From assembly GCA_021414115.1 (NCBI GenBank), contig JAIOPD010000012.1:1-64000 (forward strand): DNA of 64,000 nt, written 5' to 3'. This DNA comes from Planctomycetia bacterium (lineage in GTDB: Bacteria; Planctomycetota; Planctomycetia; Pirellulales; UBA1268). Below, piece by piece: positions 472-56,088 of the stretch (positions are counted from its first letter, which is position 1; the number at the start of each line of letters is the position of its first letter). The position numbers and the translations under genes were made by a program. Under the pieces are notes generated by a model, which had not been told where the DNA came from, did no database searches, and saw only the letters and a list, made by a program, of their open reading frames with translations.

Positions 472-667
472 CGCGGAGCGGGTTGGGGTGGAGGCCGTCT
501 ACCCCGCGCTCGCCATTGGGGCTTCCCGACCCACGAACCGTGCCTGCCGGGATTCCGGGAAGCCCGGAGCGCGAGCGACGGGTATACGCATGGCGACCCA
601 AAGAGCCGACGCGGAGCGGGTTGGGGTGGAGGCCGTCTACCCCGCGCTCGCGCTTGGGGCTTCCCGA
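472..667. repeat. REP cluster 1, upstream of the RAYT gene (1.4 units of a 138-bp repeat)
   Basis: Three copies of the 32-nt element occur: form A reversed at 497-528 and 635-666, form B forward at 556-587. Blocks beginning at 470 and 608 repeat with an exact offset of 138 bp. Each A copy is preceded by a conserved GC-rich stretch that includes GGGGTGGAGG. Form A can fold as CCCC...GGGG around an inner GC stem; form B has CCCG...CGGG instead. The cluster begins immediately after the folD stop codon and ends just before the RAYT promoter. Confidence 0.9.
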
Positions 668-681
668 CCGGAAGCGGCGGG

Positions 682-709
682 TTGACAAAGTAATATACGC
701 ATGTACACT
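682..709 (+). promoter_or_regulatory. Predicted promoter of the RAYT gene
   Basis: A perfect -35 hexamer TTGACA (682-687) is followed after 16 nt by TACACT (704-709), a 4 of 6 match to the -10 consensus. The ATG at 717 is only 7 nt further on, so transcription should begin at or next to the start codon and give a leaderless mRNA. No Shine-Dalgarno sequence is present, consistent with that reading. Confidence 0.45.
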
Positions 710-716
710 CACGCGA

Positions 717-1241
717 ATGTTTCATGAACCCGGGTCTGTCGTGTGCTCCGAACCCGTCGCGTGGTTTCTCACGTGGACGACCTACGGGTCGTGGCTTCCC
801 GGAGATGACCGTGGGTGGGTGGATCGACGACGTGGTGTTCAGGGTGGAAACCAGTTCGTGGAACAGGCCGCCCGTCGGCGGATGTCGATGCAGCCGATCA
901 CACTCACGCCGCTCGAGCGAGGATTGATCGCAGAGTCCGTGTCAGCCCATTGCCGTATTCGTGGCTGGACCCTGCATGCGTGTCAGTGCCGCACCCAACA
1001 CGTGCATGTGGTGGTGACCGCCGCCAATTCTTCCGCGCGGGCAATGATGAGCGAACTCAAGGCATGGGGGACACGAGCCCTCGACGGGCAGCCCTCGCCG
1101 ATCAGAGGGCCGCGAAGCACGGCGACGTCGCGGCGCTGGTGGGCCAAAGGAGGAAGCTGCCGGGTGGTGTTCGACCAGCGCGGACTCGAGAATGTCGTGA
1201 CCTACGTGCGTGAGTGCCAAGATCGACCCCGGGAGAAATAG
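717..1241 (+). CDS. REP-associated tyrosine transposase (RAYT, IS200/Y1 family)
   Basis: A 174-residue Y1 (HUH) single-strand DNA transposase-like protein of the RAYT group, which is thought to spread REP hairpin elements without carrying its own insertion-sequence ends. The N-terminal family signature WFLTWTTYGSWLPGDDRGWV is at residues 16-35. The metal-binding HUH motif is HVH at 95-97 (QHVHVVV) and the probable catalytic tyrosine is Tyr163 in VVTYVRECQ. The length and the Trp-rich stretch near residues 141-150 fit an intact protein. ATG 717 was chosen because it lies just downstream of a promoter-like sequence and ahead of the conserved block. Tandem 138-bp REP units lie on both sides (472-667 and 1249-1573), the standard arrangement for a RAYT and its substrate. 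Activity is inferred, not shown. Confidence 0.85.
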   Translation: MFHEPGSVVCSEPVAWFLTWTTYGSWLPGDDRGWVDRRRGVQGGNQFVEQAARRRMSMQPITLTPLERGLIAESVSAHCRIRGWTLHACQCRTQHVHVVVTAANSSARAMMSELKAWGTRALDGQPSPIRGPRSTATSRRWWAKGGSCRVVFDQRGLENVVTYVRECQDRPREK

Positions 1242-1248
1242 CGGCTCC

Positions 1249-1573
1249 GTGGGGTGGAGGCCGTATACCCCGCGCTCGCGCTTGGGGCTTCCCGACCCAC
1301 GAACCGTGCCTGCCGGGATTCCGGGAAGCCCGGAGCGCGAGCGACGGGTATACGCGTGGCGACCCAAAGAGCCGACGCGGAGCGGGTTGGGGTGGAGGCC
1401 GTCTACCCCGCGCTCGCCCTTGGGGTTTCCCGACCCACGAACCGTGCCTGCCGGGATTCCGGGAAGCCCGGAGCGCGAGCGACGGGTATACGCATGGCGA
1501 CCCAACGAGCCGACGCGGAGCGGGTTGGGTTGGAGGCCGACTACCCCGCGCTCGCCCTTGGGGCTTCCCGATC
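1249..1573. repeat. REP cluster 2, downstream of the RAYT gene (2.4 tandem 138-bp units)
   Basis: Five copies lie in strict alternation: form A reversed at 1263-1294, 1401-1432 and 1539-1570, form B forward at 1322-1353 and 1460-1491. The array has an exact 138-bp period with 59 nt from A to B and 79 nt from B to A. The units are almost identical to those upstream of the RAYT gene and closer to each other than to most copies elsewhere in the window, which suggests recent amplification here. Confidence 0.9.
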
Positions 1574-7178: not shown

Positions 7179-7352
7179 GTATACCCGTCGCTTGCGCTCC
7201 GGGCTTCCCGAAATCCCCGACGCCACGGGTCACGGCTCACGCCGCTTCCCGCTTGGAAGCCCCAAGCGCGAGCGCGGGGTATACGCTCTCCACCTCAACC
7301 CGCTTTCCGCTGCGTCCCGTCGGGAAGCCCCAAGCGCGAGCGCGGGGTATAC
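7179..7352. repeat. REP cluster 3
   Basis: Form B reversed at 7179-7210, then form A forward at 7253-7284 (first bases altered to TTGG) and 7321-7352. The spacing is 74 and 68 nt, less regular than in other clusters. The copies lie between the Rrf2 gene and the structured region at 7.4 kb. Confidence 0.85.
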
Positions 7353-9849: not shown

Positions 9850-10037
9850 CGGGAAGCCCCAAGCGCGAGCGCGGGGAATACGTCCTCCACCCCGTCCCGC
9901 TCCGCACCACAATCGCGGTCGCCACCCGTCTACCCGTCGCTCGCGCTCCGGGCTTTCCGAGAGTCGCCCGACGCCACGTCAACTCGCTCGGCCACGCTTC
10001 TTCGTCGGGAAGCCCCAAGCGCGAGCGCGGGGAATAC
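9850..10037. repeat. REP cluster 4
   Basis: Form A forward at 9850-9881, form B reversed at 9928-9959, and form A forward at 10006-10037, each 78 nt after the previous one. Both A copies end in GGGGAATAC rather than GGGGTATAC and are followed by the conserved CTCCACCCC linker. The cluster fills most of the 360-bp gap before dnaE. Confidence 0.88.
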
Positions 10038-15365: not shown

Positions 15366-15475
15366 CGGGAAGCCCCAAGCGCAAGCGCGGGGCATACGCC
15401 CTCCACCCCAACTCGCTCCGCATCGCCGACACGCCCGCCACCCGTCTACCCGTCGCTCGCGCTCCGGGCTTCCCG
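15366..15475. repeat. REP cluster 5
   Basis: Form A forward at 15366-15397 (variant GCGCAAGCG, ending GGGGCATAC) and form B reversed at 15444-15475, 78 nt apart. The pair lies between the convergent ends of the DUF1598 and universal stress protein genes, where the two arms could act as a bidirectional terminator or RNA stabiliser. Confidence 0.88.
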
Positions 15476-20231: not shown

Positions 20232-20362
20232 GGGGTTGCCCGTGCCCTCTCGTCGGACGTTCGCCTCGGCCTTCCGGGCCTCGGCTCACTGCGTGTCCGC
20301 TGCGCTTCGCCATCCATGGCTTCGCTTGCTTCCACAGCCCGCTCGAGGGCACGGGCAACCCC
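20232..20362. repeat. Large palindromic repeat, family 2, copy 1
   Basis: A 131-bp element that begins GGGGTTGCCCGTGCCCTC (20232-20249) and ends with the exact reverse complement (20345-20362), an 18-bp terminal inverted repeat. The interior contains GGACGTTCGCC near the left end and CTGCGCTTCGCCATCC in the centre, both shared with the copy at 30159. It lies just after the decarboxylase gene and is inverted relative to copy 2. Confidence 0.85.
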
Positions 20363-20386
20363 TTCCGCCAGAGTCCGAGTACGGGA

Positions 20387-20529
20387 GGTGAGGGGCTGAC
20401 CATGCCCCGGAGCCGGCGTATGCCGCCAAGCGCAGCCACGATGGCGAAGCGCAGGCGGCATCCGAGTGAGCGGAGCCCAGGATGGGCGGAGTGAACGTCC
20501 GGCTCTCGGGGCATGGTCAGCCCCTCACC
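20387..20529. repeat. Large palindromic repeat, family 2, copy 2
   Basis: A 143-bp element with a perfect 22-bp terminal inverted repeat: 20387-20408 begins GGTGAGGGGCTGACC and 20508-20529 is its exact complement. Read on the minus strand the interior matches copies 1 and 3 (CGGACGTTC near the left end, CTGCGCTTCGCCATC in the centre). The terminal stem sequence differs from copies 1 and 3 yet stays fully self-complementary. It ends 36 bp from the stop codon of the minus-strand HEXXH gene. Confidence 0.85.
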
Positions 20530-27420: not shown

Positions 27421-27508
27421 GTTTACCCGTCGCTCGCGCTCCGGGCTTCCCGAACACCAAACGCGTCACCTCCCGCAAGGAAGCCCCAAGCGCGAGCGCG
27501 GGGAATCC
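27421..27508. repeat. REP cluster 6
   Basis: Form B reversed at 27421-27452 and form A forward at 27477-27508 (start altered to AAGG, end to GGGGAATCC), 56 nt apart. The second copy is partly decayed. The cluster lies between the MFS gene and the YpfJ-type gene. Confidence 0.85.
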
Positions 27509-28487: not shown

Positions 28488-28519
28488 GTATTCCCCGCGA
28501 TTGCGCTTGGGGCTTCCTG
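28488..28519. repeat. REP copy 7 (single, decayed)
   Basis: One form A copy in reverse orientation, with GTATTCCCC at the left and CTTCCTG at the right. No B partner is found within 150 bp on either side. Confidence 0.75.
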
Positions 28520-30158: not shown

Positions 30159-30291
30159 GGGGCTGCCTGTGCCCCGAGAGCCGGACGTTCGCTTCGGGCA
30201 TCCCTGCCCTCCGCTCTCTGCACGCCGGCTGCGCTTCGCCATCCGGGCTTCGCTGGCCGCCGAGCCCGGCTCTCGGGGCACAGGCAGCCCC
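30159..30291. repeat. Large palindromic repeat, family 2, copy 3
   Basis: A 133-bp element with a perfect 24-bp terminal inverted repeat: 30159-30182 begins GGGGCTGCCTGTGCCCC and 30268-30291 is its exact complement. The interior shares CCGGACGTTCGC and GCTGCGCTTCGCCATCC with copy 1. The stem differs from the other two copies at several paired positions while staying complementary. Confidence 0.88.
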
Positions 30292-30319: not shown

Positions 30320-30430
30320 CGGGAAGCCCGGAGCGCGAGCGATGGGTATCCGGGTGGCTGAGCGTGAGGGTGTCGTGGAACGAGACGGGGTGGAGGGCGT
30401 ATTCCCCGAGGTCGCGCATGGAGATTCCTG
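30320..30430. repeat. REP cluster 8
   Basis: Form B forward at 30320-30351 and form A reversed at 30399-30430, 79 nt apart. The A copy is the most decayed in the window (GTATTCCCCGAGGTCGCG), which indicates an old insertion. Confidence 0.8.
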
Positions 30431-34258: not shown

Positions 34259-34368
34259 ATGGAAGCCCCAAACGCGAGCACGGGGTATACGTCCTCCACC
34301 CCGACTCGCTCCGGGGCACGACTAGGGTCGCCGCGCGTCTACCCGTCGCTCGCGCTCCGGGCTTCCCG
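34259..34368. repeat. REP cluster 9
   Basis: Form A forward at 34259-34290 (start altered to ATGG, one base change in CAAACGCGAGCACGG) and form B reversed at 34337-34368, 78 nt apart. The pair lies between the start of mraZ and the 3' end of gltD. Confidence 0.87.
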
Positions 34369-41772: not shown

Positions 41773-41940
41773 GGATACCCGTCGCTCGCGCTCCGGGCTT
41801 CCTGAGCCCCCGACGCTCCGCCTCTTCTTCGGGAAGCCCCAAGCGCGAGCGCGGGGTATACGGCCTCCACCTCGCGTCCCTCCGCGGAGCCCTCGCGCGA
41901 AGCCACCCGGCTACCCGTCGCTCGCGCTCCGGGCTTCCTG
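41773..41940. repeat. REP cluster 10
   Basis: Form B reversed at 41773-41804, form A forward at 41830-41861 and form B reversed at 41909-41940, giving spacings of 57 and 79 nt. Both B copies end in CTTCCTG rather than CTTCCCG. The cluster fills much of the gap between the LysR gene and the porin gene. Confidence 0.88.
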
Positions 41941-43619: not shown

Positions 43620-43932
43620 CGGGAAGCCCCAAGCGCAAGCGCGGGGAAAACGCCCTCCACCCTCACCTGCTCCGCGGCACTCTCACGCGAAGCCACCCGT
43701 CGACCCGTCGCTCGCGCTCCGGGCTTCCCGCGCACCCGATGCCACGGCTCCCGGTTCGCTGCGCCCTCCCGGCGGCCGTCGAAGACGCGTCGGCGCTCAC
43801 GGCGGTGGCATGCTTCTCCGCCGGGAAGCCCCAAGCGCAAGCGCGGGGAAAACGCCCTCCACCCCGACCTGCTCCGCGGCACCCTCACGCGAAGCCACCC
43901 GTCTACCCGTCGCTCGCGCTCCGGGCTTCCCG
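43620..43932. repeat. REP cluster 11 (two A-B pairs)
   Basis: Form A forward at 43620-43651 and 43822-43853 (both with GCGCAAGCG, ending GGGGAAAAC) and form B reversed at 43699-43730 and 43901-43932. Each pair has the 79-nt A-to-B spacing, and the two pairs are 202 nt apart as a direct repeat that also contains the shared sequence GGCGGCCGTCGAAGACGCGT. Both lie in the 620-bp gap between the porin and argB. Confidence 0.9.
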
Positions 43933-47264: not shown

Positions 47265-47430
47265 GGATACCCGTCGCTCGCGCTCCGGGCTTCCCGACGG
47301 GGGACACGCGATGCTTTCCGTCGGGAAGCCCCAAGCGCGAGCGCGGGGTATACGTCATCCACTGCCTCCCGCTCCGCGTCACCCCACGGGTCGCCCCCGC
47401 TTTCCCGTCGCTCCCGCTCCGGGCTTCTTG
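47265..47430. repeat. REP cluster 12
   Basis: Form B reversed at 47265-47296, form A forward at 47322-47353 and form B reversed at 47399-47430 (the last one decayed: GCTTTCCCGTCG...CTTCTTG). Spacings are 57 and 77 nt. The group lies between the convergent ends of argF and the glycosyltransferase gene. Confidence 0.87.
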
Positions 47431-55593: not shown

Positions 55594-56088
55594 GCCCCCG
55601 CCGCCGGCGCGTCGATCCGACGCCGCCTCCCGGCCACCGCCGCCGTCCGCCGTCCGCCGTCGGGAAGCCCCAAGCGCGAGCGCGGGGTATACGCGTCGCC
55701 CTAAAATCGGCGTCCGAGGCGCCTCCCGGCCGTGCCTCGATGCCACCCGTATACCCGTCGCTCGCGCTCCGGGCTTCCCGGGGCACTCGACGCCCCGCGT
55801 CCACCTCGCGCGCCGGGATTTTCTGGCCCGGGGGAGACTTTTCTGCCGATCCTGCGCATAATATCGAGACAAGACGCCGACGTCCGTCAGGGGCTACGGT
55901 TCGGCGCTTCAAGAAACGCTTCCCGTGACCGGGCTCGCCTCTCTATTCTCGCCCCCTTCCCGCTTCGCCGTTTCCGCGGCCAGGCAACTGTTCCGGCAAC
56001 GTGTTTCCGGTCAGAATAGAGGTGCCTTTGGAGGAAGCTTCGAAGGCGTTCCATCGCCCGCCGAGCCCATCCACTTGGGGACGTATCC
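55594..56088. other. Intergenic region before the PilT/GspE/GspF locus
   Basis: No gene is seen in this 495-bp gap. It holds the two REP copies at 55661-55780. A -10-like CATAAT at 55857-55862 and CAGAAT near 56012 are possible promoters for the downstream locus, but neither has a good -35. GGAGG near 56032 is too far from the ATG at 56089 to serve as its ribosome-binding site. Confidence 0.5.
55661..55780. repeat. REP cluster 13
   Basis: Form A forward at 55661-55692 (full GGGGTATAC end) and form B reversed at 55749-55780, 88 nt apart, somewhat wider than the usual 77-79. The cluster lies between two ATPase genes of the pilus/secretion locus. Confidence 0.88.

Follow-up and report, generated by a model that had tools for sequence, protein, structure and literature searches.

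The locus at 472–1573 of the window (the whole 64,000-nucleotide stretch analysed here, from the 95%-complete genome, G000, of a freshwater planctomycete) reads, with good support, as a REPtron: a single-copy, host-maintained class 3 Y1/HuH transposase (RAYT) together with the REPIN population that it serves. We put the probability of this reading at roughly 0.86. The window opens within folD (10–471) and continues with a hairpin-repeat block around one central gene (472–1573), followed by an ABC transporter gene (ATG 1817, stop 3766); Rfam returned only one tRNA in the window. The features of the block are as follows.

472..1573 (+): whole REPtron module, missing from the folD–ABC intergenic site of relatives
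507..527 (−): REP core, A type, core pattern match
557..577 (+): REP core, B type, hairpin CCCGGAGC-GCGA-GCGACGGG, foot GAAG
645..665 (−): REP core, A type, hairpin CCCCAAGC-GCGA-GCGCGGGG, AA/GC internal mismatch
557..665 (unstranded): complete REPIN, B+ and A− at 88 bp
682..709 (+): promoter-like TTGACA-N16-TACACT, 7 nt before the ATG, kept in species G017
694..707 (unstranded): dyad TATACGCATGTACA, overlapping the −10 element
717..1241 (+): class 3 Y1/HuH transposase (RAYT), 174 aa, HVH 95–97, Y163, Q168
1273..1293 (−): REP core, A type, core pattern match
1323..1343 (+): REP core, B type, core pattern match
1411..1431 (−): REP core, A type, core pattern match
1323..1431 (unstranded): complete REPIN, converging B/A pair
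1461..1481 (+): REP core, B type, core pattern match
1549..1569 (−): REP core, A type, core pattern match
1461..1569 (unstranded): complete REPIN, converging B/A pair

As the original prediction held, the open reading frame at 717–1241 encodes a Y1-type transposase, with H95-V-H97 and Y163 where they had been placed. The start at 717 is supported by the N-terminus, MxHEPGS, which is kept in relatives, and by the promoter-like element that ends just before the ATG. Among 75 relatives, H95, H97 and Y163 were invariant and Q168 nearly so, and a TWTTYGxWLPGDxRGW block was nearly invariant in the family profile. The protein fits TnpA-Y1 class 3 (Quentin et al. 2018, PMC6006769), with which it shares the H-V-H HuH motif, the tryptophan (W117), the Y----Q motif (Y163, Q168), a planctomycete host and a long conserved N-terminal region (a profile of about 155 aa in the class, 157 positions here). 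Pfam Y1_Tnp matched the window protein weakly (E 0.05), yet matched 69/75 family members. Sequence searches of solved structures gave no more than a chance match with the single protein and weak IS200 matches with the profile; fold search settled the identity. The AlphaFold model (pLDDT 88.7) had as its best Foldseek match 4er8, the E. coli RAYT with a REP hairpin (E 9.8e-5), with IS200-type enzymes close behind, placing the predicted Y1 fold close to TnpA-REP; VIA Z was 10.2 over 115 residues for 4er8 and higher, 12–13, for IS200 enzymes. A Y1_Tnp search and a protein search of the 95%-complete genome found no second Y1 gene, and REPs lie on both sides of this single copy. Compared with G017, the dN/dS of the RAYT was 0.29 (0.10 for folD, 0.08 for the ABC gene), indicating that the gene is under purifying selection.

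Tandem 138-bp repeats flank the gene, as had been predicted: eight A/B hairpin cores lie within 507–1569, three 5′ of the RAYT and five 3′, and TRF gives a 138-bp period for 1250–1571. The predicted alternation of two hairpin forms at fixed spacing also stood, with start-to-start distances of 50 and 88 nt (sum 138); the 59 and 79 nt given earlier describe the same period from other reference points. Similarity among the three complete units beside the RAYT is 95–97%, against a genome mean of 80%, in line with the claim that units are closest to each other here. However, tandem units elsewhere reach 97–98%, so this closeness is not special to the RAYT, and near identity, which had been taken to suggest recent activity, by itself shows local tandem duplication.

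Genome-wide, the core GGGAAGCCCNNAGCGCNAGCG occurs in 692 copies at ≤2 mismatches, compared with 2 for a reversed-pattern control; the repeats are therefore not a product of chance, and the structures flanking the gene are in high genomic copy, as described for class 3. Cores are of two types, A with CA and B with GG at the first Ns. In a 438-kb sample of G000 holding 162 cores, A and B converged at 87–88 bp nearly always (54 pairs at 86–89 bp), joints between REPIN pairs varied, mostly from 28 to 68 bp, and isolated cores numbered only 18. Column conservation was 95% in the two hairpins and 71% in the spacer. A REPIN pair folds as one hairpin (−40.8 kcal/mol, z −5.8), whereas single hairpins did not exceed composition-matched shuffles in stability. 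At 82% coding density, 160/162 cores lay outside predicted genes, as called by a simple codon-usage script. Spacing, joint fold and extragenic sites together match a REPIN as defined, namely a pair of inverted REPs a fixed distance apart that can form one long hairpin.

Extragenic placement, over-representation between convergent genes (60/155 versus 49/320 gene pairs) and the near identity of tandem copies at loci distant from the RAYT would also suit hairpins that are terminators or mRNA-end stabilisers between converging genes, spread by gene conversion and tandem duplication, with the RAYT merely having landed among them. We consider this improbable, as it predicts neither that congeners without a RAYT should lack the repeats, nor that each RAYT should be flanked by its own flavour, nor a population-wide change in the foot of B between two species. 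The hairpins may have a host role alongside the action of the RAYT. Beyond the block, the REPs of the window are these.

7189..7342 (unstranded): REP cluster of 3 cores, core pattern match
9851..10027 (unstranded): REP cluster of 3 cores, core pattern match
15367..15474 (unstranded): REPIN, core pattern match
27431..27498 (unstranded): REP pair, also at the orthologous site of G017
28498..28518 (−): single degenerate REP, with no counterpart at the orthologous G017 site
30321..30341 (+): single REP; the surrounding intergenic DNA is about 500 bp shorter in G017
34260..34367 (unstranded): REPIN, core pattern match
41783..41939 (unstranded): REP cluster of 3 cores, core pattern match
43621..43931 (unstranded): two tandem REPINs, 202-bp period
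47275..47429 (unstranded): REP cluster of 3 cores, core pattern match
55662..55779 (unstranded): REP pair, core pattern match

The REPtron reading predicts that repeats follow the enzyme, and in a genus sample of 22 genomes they did. The window's core was present in 692, 386, 175, 71, 21, 20, 10, 1 and 1 copies in the 9 RAYT carriers and in 0–3 copies in each of the 13 congeners without a RAYT, tying A/B copies to RAYT presence as the original prediction proposed. In the three carriers where typical copies are scarcest, another flavour, AAGCCCAACGNCGTNAGNCGTGGG, flanks the RAYT and is present in 286, 99 and 133 copies, so in each of the 9 carriers the repeat type around the RAYT occurs in tens to hundreds of copies. 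A general pattern gave the same association, with p-values that are all optimistic owing to the shared ancestry of the genomes: at least 15 elements in 7/9 carriers versus 0/13 non-carriers of the genus (p 2e-4), at least 20 in 10/13 versus 2/35 of the family (p 2.5e-6), and at least 10 matches in 14/45 versus 8/199 of a phylum sample of 244 genomes (p 9e-7). Many carriers in the phylum sample have zero pattern matches, as expected if their flavour differs. REP density was 2.86/kb near class 3 genes versus 0.135/kb farther off. As close relatives without a RAYT almost never have the hairpins, the enzyme very probably spreads them. In distant planctomycetes (for example, G278, G248 and G087), perfectly paired relatives of the hairpins, AGCCCATAGCGTAAGCTATGGG, AGCCCACTGCGTAAGCGGTGGG and AGCCCAGGGCGTAAGCCCTGGG, are repeated, in some cases with no class 3 gene found.

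Abundance of the repeats in relatives that lack any RAYT had been named as the result that would overturn the link. Within the genus this was not seen for the window's core, but 243 and 213 elements were counted in G028 and G044, respectively, which belong to a sister genus and in which no class 3 gene was found. Two class 3 RAYTs are present in their congener G037, and the repeats of G028 and G044 are probably remnants. One member of the genus, G021, likewise has 55 flavour-2 copies and no RAYT found; RAYT loss or assembly gaps could lie behind all three cases. In G037 the msrB–argF gap is occupied by a class 3 REPtron (L209 528–1501). In G044 the same gap (L210 361–1501) contains another RAYT (NHVH, YVEYNP; class 2 type) with CACGGACAAGTTGAAAACTTGCCGCCACGG palindromes and, ahead of its ATG, TGTATATCCGTACA, which departs from the promoter dyad at one position, and in G028 (L211 2415–2852) it contains REPs and no RAYT. 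No class 3 remnant was found at this site in G028 or G044.

Comparison of G000 with G017 suggests that RAYT and REPINs diverge together. The two species carry the RAYT at the same site, in the same gene order and on the same strand; the neighbours are 93–95% identical and the RAYTs 71%. Two bases ahead of the AAG foot, B has G in 73/74 copies of G000 and A in 14/14 of G017, a change that runs across the whole repeat population. Across the related, and hence not independent, genomes, REP flavour, which had been judged by eye from the flanks prior to tree building, followed the RAYT tree with 5 changes versus a shuffled mean of 8.1 (0/200). Some REP positions are shared between G000 and G017 and some are not, and their intergenic DNA is too diverged for precise target-site duplications to be read at empty REPIN sites.

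In six relatives (G014, G021, G005, G016, G004 and G002), the folD–ABC gap is about 240–290 bp long, holds no RAYT and can be aligned with the G000 gap when 472–1573 is left out; by this alignment, the module is a discrete insertion at the site. It sits at the folD stop codon in G000 and slightly after it in G017. Discrete insertion, a class 3 Y-motif related to that of IS200 transposases (PMC6006769), and NCBIfam IS200 and REP transposase models that score about equally would also accord with an ordinary IS200/IS605-type insertion sequence with A/B hairpin ends whose internally deleted derivatives are the scattered repeats; this is the least probable account, as the genome has one gene copy against about 690 repeats rather than mobile gene-bearing copies, the repeats are A–B dimers and not the left and right ends of a gene-bearing element, and the gene is held at one site under purifying selection in G000 and G017. 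A second folD copy, its protein 96% identical, lies at L123 1453–1911 (G000:C72) and is followed by one REP A and unrelated DNA in place of the RAYT and ABC gene; it represents either a mixed-in strain or a duplication.

The hairpins share a code. In both A and B, an unpaired 5′ foot with AAG at its end leads into an 8-nt arm that starts with CCC; a GNNA tetraloop follows, and then a second 8-nt arm with GGG at its end. The internal mismatch is AA/GC in A and GA/GA in B. In relatives, the repeats beside class 3 genes have a foot whose end is mostly AG; it is followed by CCC, a variable stretch, GC-GNNA-GC with GNNA as the loop, a second variable stretch and GGG. The variable columns covaried (0.152 versus 0.070 in shuffles, 0/500; slid controls 0.004–0.085) in a set of 40 sequences that were chosen by pattern and are related to one another, so the covariation is support and not proof. 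The CnGA foot reported for class 3 (PMC6006769) can be read, in a register of our own choosing, as CGGA, CCGA or CTGA before an inner GC-GNNA-GC hairpin within the stem of B and in most relatives, but not in A, which has CCAA. The canonical GTAG/GTGG foot is absent, being GAAG in G000 with other bases before AG in relatives; this is therefore not a canonical class 2 RAYT/REP system. A CGTC tag at the far end of A and B was considered and dropped, as the bases adjacent to the hairpin vary.

Set against known systems, class 3 has been reported from planctomycetes, acidobacteria and proteobacteria with atypical flanking structures, in about 600 copies in Solibacter, and has been likened to a REPtron (PMC6006769). 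The view that RAYT/REP systems are little described in planctomycetes thus holds in part, class 3 RAYT-like proteins and structures having been reported in 2018. As in that report, the gene here is flanked by atypical hairpins of a kind that can reach hundreds of copies; unlike there, the repeats are resolved as A/B REPINs with 87–88-bp spacing, GNNA loops and an AAG-ending foot, and RAYTs are matched to REP flavours within one genus. The E. coli RAYT/TnpA-REP and its REPs/BIMEs (4er8; PMC8266576) share with the present system the fold, a single-copy gene amid REPs, two REP types in opposite orientation and a short foot 5′ of the hairpin. A-type repeats also have the same AA/GC mismatch, which is required for cutting in E. 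coli (PMC8266576) and may have arisen here by convergence. The two systems differ in foot (GAAG, not GTAG) and in motif (Y----Q, not YI..NP-type), at about 11–15% identity. Pseudomonas REPINs (Bertels and Rainey 2011, PMC3116915) are likewise inverted REP doublets that form one long hairpin and disperse as a unit, whereas the two REPs here are of unlike types (A and B) and the RAYT is of class 3. The GTAG/CGTC superfamilies (Di Nocera et al. 2013, PMC3733652), which include REPs from the PVC superphylum and CGTC REPs without a transposase, are also short extragenic palindromes with opposite-orientation dimers, but neither tag adjoins the GAAG-footed hairpins of A and B.

The position of the promoter-like element so close to the ATG leads us to infer that the RAYT mRNA is leaderless. 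A dyad of the form TRTWC-N4-GWAYA, as at 694–707, is kept before 12/14 class 3 RAYTs read in the family (control windows matching, 0.14%), with further copies directly before RAYT starts at L061 8762, L062 780, L063 7779, L064 2273, L065 4355, L066 8801, L068 3455, L069 821, L070 1261, L071 8083 and L074 3539. It was not seen away from RAYT starts in 773 kb of DNA examined; one further chance-level match lies in later G000 stretches (L226 4724). As a guess, the dyad might be an operator of the RAYT. Its use as the mark of a wider, LexA-like regulon is unsupported, with 2 occurrences in 784 kb of G000, as often as chance; the only paper located on LexA motifs and planctomycetes dealt with no such box.

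In the REPtron as we picture it, the RAYT would bind the folded single strand of a REP when exposed, for example, on the lagging-strand template, cut beside the hairpin through Tyr163 and rejoin the ends. REPINs, each one A and one B facing at 87–88 bp, would be the copied unit; the RAYT would excise, insert or amplify them in trans and leave its own gene in place. The predicted fold and catalytic residues, the hairpins with their covariation, the REPIN architecture, the co-occurrence of RAYT and REPs, the matching of flavours and the discrete insertion at folD can be read from sequence; hairpin binding, DNA cleavage and movement are attributed to the RAYT by inference. More tentatively, and at somewhat less than even odds, class 3 REPtrons may form a REP–RAYT lineage in which, species by species, the RAYT changes in concert with its entire REPIN population, giving near relatives private cognate flavours within a shared hairpin code (AG-CCC...GNNA...GGG); the family's RAYTs would be driven by a leaderless promoter that has a dyad operator of its own, found almost only before RAYTs, and whole REPtrons would be replaceable at one site by another class. 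As far as the open-access literature shows, the REPIN anatomy, hairpin code, flavours matched within a genus, empty site and promoter dyad are new here, and prior reports are possible. The RAYT/REP experiments that we found come from a small number of gammaproteobacteria. Close species of this genus form a natural series in which the RAYT is present, absent or matched to other flavours, and there is an empty insertion site as well. Specificity, in the sense of each RAYT acting on its own REPs alone, and co-evolution are thereby testable in a third class, one that has been suggested to connect IS transposases with domesticated RAYTs.

A second intergenic palindromic family, GGGGCTGCCCGTGCCCCGAGAGCCGGACGTTCGC ... 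and its inverse, yielded no matches in 69 kb of G017 and about 69 core matches in 784 kb of G000, among them 20232–20525 and 30159–30290 of the window and L083 8155–8285 and 13272–13400.
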